Source: Methanoregula sp.
GTDB taxonomy: Archaea > Halobacteriota > Methanomicrobia > Methanomicrobiales > Methanospirillaceae
Assembly (NCBI RefSeq): GCF_003170075.1
Contig: NZ_PMZU01000067.1
Coordinates: 49,592-84,663 of the forward strand
Length of the DNA: 35,072 nucleotides
Direction: 5' to 3'
Made by a program: the position numbers and the translations under genes. Positions 4,413 to 9,177 of the stretch are shown one piece after another. A model generated the notes under the pieces. That model did not search any database, was not told the DNA's origin, and saw only the letters and a program-made list of their open reading frames with translations. Position 1 is the first letter of the stretch; each line of letters begins with the position of its first letter.

Positions 4413-4609
4413 AGACAGATTTTTTTGCCCGCCCACACGGCTGCATCATCTTTAACAAACCAGTCCGATCCGGGAGGCACCGGAATACCTGTGGATGTTT
4501 CTGGCGCTCGGTGCTTTGTGGAGCGTCAGTCAGGTAGTGGGACTGCGATCCGGGCCAAGACTGTAATGTTCATGTGCGATCAAAAGAGATAGTCCGGAAG
4601 AGATGCCCC

Positions 4610-5848
4610 GTGGAACAGTATGACATTGCAGTTATCGGCGCCGGCCCGGCCGGTCTTTTCTGTGCGATCCATTCCATAGGGCCAGGTATCCGCGTGCTTC
4701 TTCTGGAGAAGAACCTGCAGCCCGGGATGAAACTTCGGATATCAGGCACGGGCCAGTGCAACATCACGCATGACGGGGATATACGGATGTTTTTTCCCCG
4801 GTACGGCGCACACGGGCAGTTTCTCAGACCCGCACTTATGTCTTATACAAACCAGATGCTTATCCGGTTTTTTGAGGAGCGAAACCTCCCGATGGAGATA
4901 ACAGAGGGAGGCAAGGTCTTTCCTGTAAGTCATAAGGCCGGGGATGTCTGCGAGGTTCTTATCCGGGAGTGCCAACACCCGGGGGTCGATTTGCGGTGCG
5001 GCGAACCGGTGCACCGGGTTGAAAACACGCCTTTAGGGTTTGTCCTGTATACGGCCGGCGATACATTTTCTGCAAAGAATCTGGTCATTGCTACCGGTGG
5101 GGCATCCTACCCGAAGACCGGATCAACAGGAGATGGCTACCGGCTCGCCGCATCCCTTGGGCATACGATAACCGGGATCGGGCCGGCGCTCACCCCGCTC
5201 CTGATTAGAAACTTCCCGTTTGCAGACCTCGCCGGCATGTCGTTTGCCGGGCTGCCATTCTCGGTCTGGCGGGAGAACCGGAAGATCTTTGACGGGCAGG
5301 GAGACATACTCTTCACGCACACCGGCCTTTCCGGGCCCGGGATCCTTGACCGTTCACGCGATATCCGGGCCGGGGATGAGATCCGGCTCTCGTTTGCCGG
5401 GCCGGTACAGTGCGACACGTTTGAACGGGAGTTCCAGAATATTATCTCCAGAGCCCCGACAAGATCGATAAAAACCATTATTGCCGGTCTTGGGATTCCC
5501 GAACGGCTGGCCCGCCAGCTCCCGGATCTTGCCGGAATTCCGGCGGATAGTACCGGTGCTCACATGACTGCTGCCGGACGTACAATCCTGATCGGCCTCT
5601 TAACAGCATGTCCGCTTGTGGTCTCTTCCCTTGGGGATCTCTCCGTCGCGATGGTAACCCGGGGTGGTGTTGCACTTGGGGAGGTGCATGCAAAGACGAT
5701 GGAATCAAAACAGGTGCCCGGGCTTTTCTTCGCCGGGGAGGTGCTCGATATTGATGGTGACACCGGGGGTTTTAACCTCCAGGCCGCGTTCTCCACGGGT
5801 TTTCTTGCAGCGCTGGGAATCCGCAAACGGGTCGGAAAACGCACGTAA
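4610..5848 (+). CDS. NAD(P)/FAD-dependent oxidoreductase, HI0933/BaiN family
   Basis: This is a flavoprotein of about 412 residues of the HI0933-like (BaiN) family, whose physiological substrates are mostly unknown. The N-terminal Rossmann dinucleotide-binding motif is YDIAVIGAGPAGLFCA with GxGxxG spacing. It is followed by LLLEKN, the family motif GMKLRISGTGQCNITH, a central ATGGASYPKTGSTGDGY, LFTHTGLSGPGIL and the C-terminal FAD-binding signature FAGEVLDIDGDTGGFNLQAAFSTG. I chose the GTG at 4610 (GGAAGAG lies about 13 nt upstream) because the Rossmann strand usually starts two to five residues from the N-terminus. A GTG at 4574 would add MRSKEIVRKRCP. No neighbour suggests a pathway. Confidence 0.88.
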   Translation: MEQYDIAVIGAGPAGLFCAIHSIGPGIRVLLLEKNLQPGMKLRISGTGQCNITHDGDIRMFFPRYGAHGQFLRPALMSYTNQMLIRFFEERNLPMEITEGGKVFPVSHKAGDVCEVLIRECQHPGVDLRCGEPVHRVENTPLGFVLYTAGDTFSAKNLVIATGGASYPKTGSTGDGYRLAASLGHTITGIGPALTPLLIRNFPFADLAGMSFAGLPFSVWRENRKIFDGQGDILFTHTGLSGPGILDRSRDIRAGDEIRLSFAGPVQCDTFEREFQNIISRAPTRSIKTIIAGLGIPERLARQLPDLAGIPADSTGAHMTAAGRTILIGLLTACPLVVSSLGDLSVAMVTRGGVALGEVHAKTMESKQVPGLFFAGEVLDIDGDTGGFNLQAAFSTGFLAALGIRKRVGKRT

Positions 5849-5929: not shown

Positions 5930-6640
5930 TTATTCTTTTATCCATCCCAGTTTTCCCAGTATATACCGGGTCTCGTCCTGTGCCTTGCTTCCCGGCCTGC
6001 GCGGCTGGATCACGATGGTCAGCGCATTTTTAAGCGGGACACCTGCTCTTTTTCCCTTACCCTTGCAGAGCACATAGTCACCGTTGAACCGGTGTAATGC
6101 CTTGACAAAGGTCTTTGCGATCTTCTCCCGGTCCGCAAGATCGCTTTTTTTGAGTTTCATGAGATGCTCAAAGAGCGAGAGATCGATAAGCGTCGAGGCC
6201 ATCCAGCCGATCTCACATGTGTATCCGAAGATCCAGGCGATGCGCGAATTTTTCGTGGTGGACAAAAAATCATCGATGTTATTACCCACGCTGCACGAAC
6301 CGATAACGACCCCCTCGATATTGGAGTAGTTCGCCGCACTCCTGACCACCTTGAACATCGACGGGATCTTCATGCCGGTCTTGGCCTTGAGCCCCCCAAT
6401 CCGTTTGCCGGTCCCGTGGGCCGCTACATAGAGAAAGAGCCGGTCTTCCCGGGTATTGGTGAGGTCCTCTGAAAGCGCCTGTTTAAAACCGTTTTTTTCG
6501 TAGAAGTTGGAATAATAGATATTGAAATCTCCCCGGTAACTCTCAAGTCCTTCCAGAAACGACAACACCGAGGGTCGTTTGGGTTTCTGCTCCGGTGTCC
6601 ACCAGAGCCCTTCAATCACCAGAAGTGCAGTACTACTCAT
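5930..6640 (-). CDS. Putative caspase-like (clan CD) cysteine protease-fold protein
   Basis: This 236-residue cytoplasmic protein has no confident family match by eye. Its layout fits the caspase/CHAT-type fold: strand ALLVIEGL, strand NIYYSNFY, helix KQALSEDL, then strand RLFLYVAAHG with His75-Gly76, and 41 residues later strand EGVVIGSCSVGNN with Cys116. A hydrophobic strand ending in His-Gly and a second ending in small residue-Cys is the arrangement of the catalytic dyad in clan CD peptidases. A basic C-terminal region follows. The ATG at 6640 has GGAG 9 nt upstream. The gene stands alone, converging on the flavoprotein gene, so no partner or substrate is suggested. Fold and activity are inference. 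It could also be an inactive or unrelated alpha/beta protein. Confidence 0.6.
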   Translation of the reverse strand: MSSTALLVIEGLWWTPEQKPKRPSVLSFLEGLESYRGDFNIYYSNFYEKNGFKQALSEDLTNTREDRLFLYVAAHGTGKRIGGLKAKTGMKIPSMFKVVRSAANYSNIEGVVIGSCSVGNNIDDFLSTTKNSRIAWIFGYTCEIGWMASTLIDLSLFEHLMKLKKSDLADREKIAKTFVKALHRFNGDYVLCKGKGKRAGVPLKNALTIVIQPRRPGSKAQDETRYILGKLGWIKE

Positions 6641-6999: not shown

Positions 7000-7245
7000 A
7001 TGACGCTCGAACAGATCATCGATATAACCGGGGAATTTACGCATCTTCACGAACTGGTGATGATCCATATTGAAAAATCCGGGGGATTTGCCGGACCAGA
7101 TGCCTATTTTAAAACAGTTCAGCCTCTCCTCGACCTGCTCGAAGTCGAGATCCGGGTCCGTTGCCGGCAGAGCATGACGCAGCAGCAGATGAAACTGGTC
7201 ATACAGGACTGGATCGATCAGGAGATTAGAGAGTGCAGGGACTAA
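7000..7245 (+). CDS. Small acidic protein of unknown function
   Basis: I do not recognise this 81-residue protein. It begins MTLEQIIDITGEFTHLHELV, is rich in Glu, Asp and Gln, and is predicted to be mainly helical (LLDLLEVEIRVRCRQ, QQMKLVIQDWIDQEI). It is probably a small cytoplasmic helical bundle. The ATG at 7000 has no good ribosome-binding site. The same frame stays open upstream to 6862, so the true start may be an unusual codon further left. It lies between two minus-strand genes and has no operon partner. The reading frame opposite it is longer, but it has the Trp/Phe/Cys/His-rich composition of a shadow. Confidence 0.5.
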   Translation: MTLEQIIDITGEFTHLHELVMIHIEKSGGFAGPDAYFKTVQPLLDLLEVEIRVRCRQSMTQQQMKLVIQDWIDQEIRECRD

Positions 7246-7381: not shown

Positions 7382-8587
7382 TCAGATCCACCCGGTTGCC
7401 CACGCCCACATATTGTGGACACCGGTCGAGATCACGACAACGGGATCGATGTGTAGCAGCGGGAAAACAAAGATGAAGTACAGGATCGTCCCGAGCAGGC
7501 TCCCGAGATTTGCAAGCGCAGCCACCAGCACCACCTTAAAAAGCGGGATGCGTGCCATTTCACGGATCGATTCTGTTTCGTAAATTTTCCGGAAATCCGA
7601 AACCGGCGGTTTTCGTACCTTCGCCTCAACGTACGCGGCAAACCATCCGGCATGGAGTAACGGGTTCAGGGAGGTCATCCACGCCACGCCAAAACAGGTG
7701 AGAGCGGAATACGGGTGCCCCCCGGCAAGGAGGGTAAACGATGCAGCAAGTACTCCGTGGATGATCACCCAGAAGAGGAGTGCGTATAAGAGCACGATCC
7801 AGCCGACACCGGAGAACGCGATCGCCGCAAGCAAAAAGGCAAAAAGCCCCGTGACCGCGAACCCGAATATTTTCGCCCAGGGAAACGATCTCGGCTCCCT
7901 GGTGAGGGCATCAAATGGCGGGAGAGTCTGCGGGTGTTCGACATAGTTCGTGATGCCCTGCCGGTGGCCGGCGCCGACCACGGCAAGGATTCTGCCCTCC
8001 GGCCGCTGCACCTTTAAAATGACGAGCTGGTGGGCGATGAACGCATCCCGTTCATCAATGAGGGCATGAGCGCCGTTGGGCGAGAACTTGCGGAACTCCT
8101 CCATGACCGCATCGATGACGTTCTGCTCCTTGAGCGACTCTATATCGATCTCTTCTCCCTTGTCCACCTCGGCAATGGAGAAGATAAGCGCAAAGATCAT
8201 CTTGATCTTCTCGATGAGCCCCATCGATTTCCAGAACCGCAGGAGCGTGAGCCGTATGTCCCGGTCAACGAGCGCAATCGCAATCCCCCGGCTCTCCGCC
8301 TCCGCAATGGCCAGCTTCATCTCGGCACCCGGCTCGACGCCGACATCGACGCCAATCTTGCGCTGGAGGTAAGAGAGCAGCCACTGGACAAGGAGTGAGT
8401 TGAAGTTCTTTACTTCAAGGACATCATCAACTGTCGGATCCCGGGCCTGTTTTTTTAAGGCGTTGAAACGGGCAGGGTCAAGTTCGATGGCCACAACATC
8501 GGGCCTGAACTCGTCGATCGCTGCCTTTACTTCATCGACACTTTTCTGGGAGACATGTGCAGTCCCGACGATCCTTAAATCAGCCAT
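7382..8587 (-). CDS. TraB/PrgY-family membrane protein
   Basis: This 401-residue protein of the TraB family is related by motif to pheromone-shutdown PrgY/TraB and to the Tiki/TraB protease-like fold. The soluble N-terminal domain begins ADLRIVGTAHVSQKS with the conserved GTAHVS motif. It also has VVAIELDPARF and, near residue 213, VVGAGHRQG with the second conserved GxxH, both proposed as metal or catalytic residues in this fold. From about residue 235 on it carries several hydrophobic transmembrane segments (GLFAFLLAAIAFSGVGWIVLL; VVLVAALANLGSLLGTI; a last one ending VFPLLHI). Archaeal members have the same domain-plus-membrane layout, but their role is unknown. The ATG at 8587 follows GGTGA with proper spacing. 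Confidence 0.88.
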   Translation of the reverse strand: MADLRIVGTAHVSQKSVDEVKAAIDEFRPDVVAIELDPARFNALKKQARDPTVDDVLEVKNFNSLLVQWLLSYLQRKIGVDVGVEPGAEMKLAIAEAESRGIAIALVDRDIRLTLLRFWKSMGLIEKIKMIFALIFSIAEVDKGEEIDIESLKEQNVIDAVMEEFRKFSPNGAHALIDERDAFIAHQLVILKVQRPEGRILAVVGAGHRQGITNYVEHPQTLPPFDALTREPRSFPWAKIFGFAVTGLFAFLLAAIAFSGVGWIVLLYALLFWVIIHGVLAASFTLLAGGHPYSALTCFGVAWMTSLNPLLHAGWFAAYVEAKVRKPPVSDFRKIYETESIREMARIPLFKVVLVAALANLGSLLGTILYFIFVFPLLHIDPVVVISTGVHNMWAWATGWI

Positions 8588-8781: not shown

Positions 8782-9177
8782 TCAGCACTTTTGAGAACAG
8801 TCGAAGAGCATGTTGGGGTTATTGTAGTACGAACTCTTGCACATCTGGACGCAGCTGACGCACTTGTCATACTTCGGATCAGTCACAACTTGGCACGAAC
8901 CGCTCACTATCTGGCAGCTGGCGTACTGGCGGCACCGGTCTCCTGCATCCATATCGTTTGAACAGGCCGTGGCCAGGTTCGGACCGCACGTGACCGTGAG
9001 CCCGTGGCAGTTCTCCACTCCGCATGCAGTAATGGTCGGCACTTCAGTCGGGGCCGCAGTGGCAGTTGGTTCAGCAGTTACTACCGCAGCCGGCGGGGCA
9101 CTTGAGGTACAACCGGCACAAAGGATCACAACAGCAGTCAGGATCAGCAGTAAGACCATGGGGCGGAATATCTTCAT
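8782..9177 (-). CDS. Cysteine-rich lipoprotein of unknown function
   Basis: This is a 131-residue exported protein. The N-terminus is a lipoprotein signal peptide with hydrophobic core VLLLILTAVVILCAGC, and the lipobox Cys is residue 23, so it is probably lipid-anchored outside the membrane. A low-complexity Ala/Thr/Pro linker (about residues 24-48) follows. A compact domain (about 50-131) then carries 13 cysteines, including CGVENC, CRQYASC and CVSCVQMC. Such density suggests a disulfide-stabilised extracellular domain or metal binding. I do not recognise the family. It is divergent from the CooC/Cdh locus, with 155 bp between them, but nothing shows that it functions with Cdh. Confidence 0.75.
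   Translation of the reverse strand: MKIFRPMVLLLILTAVVILCAGCTSSAPPAAVVTAEPTATAAPTEVPTITACGVENCHGLTVTCGPNLATACSNDMDAGDRCRQYASCQIVSGSCQVVTDPKYDKCVSCVQMCKSSYYNNPNMLFDCSQKC

Follow-up and report, generated by a model that had tools for sequence, protein, structure and literature searches.

Clan CD cysteine peptidases are built on a core of strands 1–4 and helices 1–3 with the sheet order 2-1-3-4 (PMC4357240). The described families closest to the protein reported here are Peptidase_C13 (legumain or asparaginyl endopeptidase, PF01650), CHAT (PF12770, including the SAVED-CHAT and TPR-CHAT effectors) and the caspases and orthocaspases (Peptidase_C14, PF00656). Archaeal extracts have been reported to show caspase-like activity, and archaeal genomes are said to be without clear homologues (PMC3615174). 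We analyzed a 35,072-nt stretch of a Methanoregula genome, hereafter the window, and our results indicate with good confidence that it encodes a cytosolic, single-domain clan CD cysteine peptidase, an accessory gene product whose activity is predicted.

The gene (P0001, 236 aa) is located on the minus strand at 5930–6640, with its codons at 5933–6640 and the stop codon at 5930–5932. The open reading frame starts with ATG, and a GGAG stretch can be read from the sequence 8 nt 5′ of it. A first-pass annotation of this DNA had noted the motifs AAHG (with His75) and GSCSVG (with Cys116) and proposed a caspase-like peptidase. Both motifs are present in the 236-aa frame, and the caspase-like reading is well supported by the invariance of the dyad, by profile scores against C13 and CHAT, and by the fold matches of an orthologue model (L014). 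The two codons (His75, 6416–6418; Cys116, 6293–6295; both minus strand) place the residues 41 positions apart, as that annotation had stated. Strand 1 lies almost at the N-terminus of the protein, which has neither a sensor domain nor a prodomain. In nine pairs of family members, four of which include the window gene, dN/dS ranged from 0.05 to 0.10; the gene is under purifying selection.

A bare HG…SC pattern could arise by chance. For the conservation analysis, we aligned 33 distinct full-length sequences, namely the 37 loci without three exact duplicates and the fragment L015, with the later-found carriers G394, G399 and G403 left out; the set includes bacterial plasmid homologues at only 25–34% identity. 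Twelve residues were invariant (E10, W13, A55, L60, Y71, H75, G76, G110, C116, W136, Y140 and W146). The protein contains His at 75, 159 and 183 and Cys at 116, 142 and 192, and the conservation does not look like chance because only His75 and Cys116 among these are invariant. When the duplicates and the fragment were kept, His75 was present in 36 of 36 covering loci and Cys116 in 37 of 37. Conservation of both residues, which the first-pass annotation had named as a check on its proposal, thus held in orthologues and remote bacterial homologues alike (33/33). His75, directly followed by Gly76, is the predicted catalytic histidine after strand 3 and Cys116 the predicted catalytic cysteine after strand 4; His75 would activate Cys116, which would then attack the peptide bond of the substrate. 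We infer that the protein is probably an active peptidase.

Among the alternatives, the one that survives best accepts the caspase fold and lets the His and Cys serve other chemistry or binding, such as thiol-based ligand sensing or acyl transfer, instead of peptide cleavage. No activity is known for any member, and we found no biochemical evidence for one; the invariant Glu10, Trp13 and Trp146 are not known to correspond to a clan CD signature; and the sensor, prodomain or partner gene that peptidase effectors often have is absent, all of which would suit such a role. We nevertheless consider it improbable, since the dyad is strictly invariant even across very divergent members, whereas the dyad residues of pseudo-orthocaspases, according to PMC6426788, are replaced by Tyr and Ser.

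No model in Pfam, NCBIfam or PADLOC matched the window protein over cut-off, and none of these collections held a naming model for the 33 members. PADLOC-DB 2.0.0 contained no family for the window protein, and PHROGs gave no convincing match for the four members tried. In PADLOC searches at E ≤ 1, only 2 of the 33 members matched any model (DpdD, best E 0.027), which we read as chance. The first-pass annotation had looked to Peptidase_C14 and CHAT as the models to search, and in this respect it was not borne out: cut-offs were not reached for either family, and neither was listed for the window protein at E ≤ 10 or for any of the 33 members at E ≤ 1. The nearest named family was instead Peptidase_C13, likewise below its cut-off. 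Out of 24,736 models, it ranked best below threshold with the window protein as query (E 0.026; residues 57–126, spanning His75 and Cys116), scoring 14.5 bits against a gathering cut-off of 22.8, and it appeared at E ≤ 1 in 23 of the 33 members (best E 0.0072). The remote Rhizobium homologue also matched it (E 0.023), and no match was seen in the other three plasmid homologues or in the two divergent archaeal members tried.

Profile–profile comparison also placed C13 first. Using hhalign with alignments of archaeal C13, CHAT, C14 and C11 regions (n = 5, 13, 13 and 11, respectively), the family profile gave P values of 1.8e-4 against C13, 1e-3 against CHAT, 0.021 against C14 and 0.72 against C11, and the family's H and C fell in register with the H and C of C13. 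Reversed alignments, used as a control, gave P values of 0.16–0.63. The real score was reached by none of 200 block-shuffles for C13 or for CHAT, and by 4 of 200 for C14. Accepted clan CD pairs were weaker in the same test (C13/CHAT, P 0.0086; C13/C11, P 0.043). C11 was rejected as a relative for want of a profile signal, and a PDB sequence search by profile yielded no chain from clan CD at E ≤ 10. Within the window's genome, searches with the C13, C14, CHAT and C11 models gave no match, which leaves the caspase-like gene as the sole clan CD-like one found there. Full-length Peptidase_C13 (legumain-like) domains were observed separately in five genomes of the window's order, three of them of the same genus (L049–L053); these archaeal C13 proteins are encoded in open frames of 394–760 aa, whereas the caspase-like protein is a single domain of 236 aa.

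Structure prediction followed by fold search, which the first-pass annotation had expected to return caspase, CHAT or gingipain matches, led to caspases for one model and not for the other. The AlphaFold model of the window protein itself was of low quality (pLDDT 49.4), and searching with it was uninformative: nothing reached E ≤ 0.001, and the 50 matches listed included three plant legumain-type endopeptidases and no caspase. For the 55%-identical orthologue L014, modeled from much the same sequences, the best run reached pLDDT 73.7 and pTM 0.72, and the remaining four of five runs gave pLDDT 50–58. The order of elements in this moderate-confidence prediction (strand 4–10, helix 25–34, strand 39–45, helix 52–60, strand 67–73, helix 97–108, strand 113–119) fits that of the clan CD core, with His75 following strand 67–73 and Cys121, the equivalent of Cys116 in the window protein, following strand 113–119. 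Foldseek against the PDB with the L014 model ranked caspase-11, caspase-7, caspase-3 and CED-3 highest (E 2.6e-4 to 2.7e-3; probability of the best match 1.00), and the better model thereby passed the fold check named in the first-pass annotation. The 50 matches listed comprised 33 caspases, 2 legumain entries, 14 lumazine synthases and 1 pilin, with modest query-normalized TM-scores to the listed caspases (0.26–0.49). With VIA-align, which was less specific than Foldseek, generic alpha/beta proteins led (Z up to 9.6); SAVED-CHAT ranked fourth (Z 9.1, rmsd 4.9, 185 aligned residues) and legumain 48th (Z 7.9), and the 50 matches listed held no C14, C11 or CHAT protein besides SAVED-CHAT, an absence that excludes nothing. 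Among viral structure models, the best match was an uncharacterized phage protein (E 4.3e-5), with a clostripain and several caspase-named proteins lower down.

The protein thus shares different features with each of the three families. It resembles C13 in the best sub-threshold Pfam match, the best profile–profile match and the registered HG and C. It resembles CHAT in a profile match that beats all shuffles and in the SAVED-CHAT alignment over 185 residues, and differs from it in that no Pfam CHAT match is listed for the members and no TPR, SAVED or CRISPR partner was seen. With caspases and orthocaspases it shares the top Foldseek matches and a dyad whose His follows strand 3 and whose Cys follows strand 4; the absence of a C14 HMM match and the weak profile match, equaled by some shuffles, set it apart. 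The predictions support the fold and the dyad placement, and a clan CD fold is very likely. A second alternative, a generic Rossmann-like alpha/beta protein outside clan CD in which the conserved His and Cys are functionally unrelated, draws on the moderate model confidence and on the lumazine synthases, receiver domains and sugar-binding proteins that also match the L014 model. It appears very unlikely, given that the best Pfam model, the shuffle-tested profile comparisons and the top Foldseek matches all point towards clan CD and keep the dyad in register.

Returning to the clan CD peptidase, the L014 model places E10, W13, H75, G76, C116, Y140 and W146 at or soon past the C-terminal ends of strands 1, 3, 4 and 5, where the active site of clan CD would be expected to lie. 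The invariant pair Glu10 (6611–6613) and Trp13 (6602–6604), both minus strand and 33/33, is found at the end of strand 1 and, judged by strand order (strand 4–10 of the orthologue model), may lie on the rim that also carries the dyad. Trp136 (6233–6235), Tyr140 (6221–6223) and Trp146 (6203–6205), also on the minus strand and invariant in 33/33, belong to strand 5 and the loop after it, and we infer that these aromatics are candidates for the wall of a substrate pocket. Glu10, Trp13, Tyr140 and Trp146 would line the dyad rim, probably forming that pocket. Glu10 was also considered as a possible S1 acid for Arg/Lys specificity, although it lies at the very end of strand 1 and the S1 Asp of metacaspases further into the loop.

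We then examined the gene neighborhood. The caspase-like gene is convergent with a gene at 4574–5848, which we take to encode an HI0933-type oxidoreductase, and divergent from an 81-aa gene at 7000–7245 on the plus strand; next past the latter is a gene at 7382–8587, presumably of the TraB type. The 81-aa protein is an orphan with no Pfam match. Further along, the window contains at 8782–9177 (minus strand) a 131-aa secreted or lipoprotein-like open reading frame with a signal-like N-terminus (ILCAGCTSS), 14 cysteines and no Pfam family over cut-off. Clustering of flanking open reading frames at the 37 loci found the 81-aa gene nearby in at least 19 and the TraB-type gene in at least 13, with other neighbors elsewhere; these counts are lower bounds because many loci have only 1.5 kb of flank. 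In a congener (G056), the TraB-type, 81-aa and oxidoreductase genes occur in the same order with no room for the caspase-like gene, the 81-aa and oxidoreductase genes being separated by 87 bp if the former is read at its longest and by <200 bp in its shorter reading. This locus is an empty site, and the caspase-like gene was therefore gained or lost alone. The stand-alone status claimed in the first-pass annotation agrees with this clean empty site and with the lack of a conserved partner gene. The idea that the gene forms a two-gene system with its divergent 81-aa neighbor, whether toxin–antitoxin-like or protease–regulator, is prompted by their proximity in 19 of 37 loci and is largely refuted, leaving it extremely unlikely, by their independent occurrence in the 61 genomes of the window's family (both genes in 8, the 81-aa gene alone in 6 of its 14 carriers, the caspase-like gene alone in 9 of its 17), so that the 81-aa gene is a syntenic neighbor outside the system.

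Without a sensor domain, a prodomain or a partner gene, the single-domain peptidase would probably depend for its control on expression, oligomerization or a small ligand, and not on a fixed partner protein.

The gene has a patchy distribution. When one genome per species was scanned, 14 homologous loci were recovered, all from records bearing the names Methanoregula, Methanolinea, Methanoregulaceae or Methanomicrobiales. The caspase-like gene was present in 17 of 61 genomes of the window's family and in 18 of 392 genomes of the phylum, the same 18 being recovered with a broader profile, and all 18 fall within the window's own family or order. The family does not explain the Haloferax activity, because the phylum sample has it only in the window's own order. 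One genome (G290) carries a second, 45%-identical caspase-like copy elsewhere (L034/L048/L145, G290:C53:37336-38034) with unrelated neighbors. A tblastn search of 72,556 plasmids identified four remote homologues (25–33% identity, E 2e-36 to 5e-8) in Pseudomonas veronii, Vibrio cyclitrophicus, V. parahaemolyticus and Rhizobium phaseoli. The description of the protein as archaeal accordingly holds for its methanogen carriers and fails as an exclusive label, as four proteobacterial plasmids carry homologues. The Pseudomonas homologue is annotated with a 99-aa N-terminal extension that has no counterpart in six other aligned sequences, and we take it to be a misplaced start. A distant DNA search with one plasmid homologue as query found no homologue in E. 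coli. The idea of a phage-borne gene was dropped, as phage records and four IMG/VR scans contained no homologue.

We also inspected the surroundings of the plasmid homologues, scanning 9 neighbor proteins against PADLOC and 10 against Pfam, 8 of them plasmid neighbors. On the P. veronii plasmid, a 986-aa UvrD-type helicase (L035:3053-6013, minus) lies two genes from the homologue, and its GajB-type PADLOC matches fall mostly in the C-terminal third. On the V. cyclitrophicus plasmid, an ATP-binding protein adjoining a response regulator, past a transposase gene, matches PDC-M43B. A defense island was rejected, there being no pattern common to the four plasmids, and PADLOC searches of the members and of the plasmid neighbors found no link to defense.

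Our literature search on archaeal or methanogen caspase-like, clan CD and anti-phage proteins, with subscription papers mostly outside its scope, listed no paper whose title or abstract opening points to this family. Because no named family tested claims the protein, it looks like a real, uncharacterized branch of the caspase superfamily, most likely a new, patchily distributed family of clan CD. As a 236-aa single domain with a predicted dyad, it lends itself readily to a direct assay of activity. The patchy, single-gene distribution across domains is more in keeping with an accessory gene for stress or conflict than with a housekeeping gene, and the gene, gained or lost alone and common to methanogens and bacteria, would probably serve such a role. 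A bolder proposal, which we regard as doubtful, is that this horizontally mobile, partnerless caspase-fold peptidase acts as a self-contained death effector, in stress or against invaders, in methanogens and on proteobacterial plasmids; if true, it would represent a minimal partnerless caspase-type module across two domains of life.
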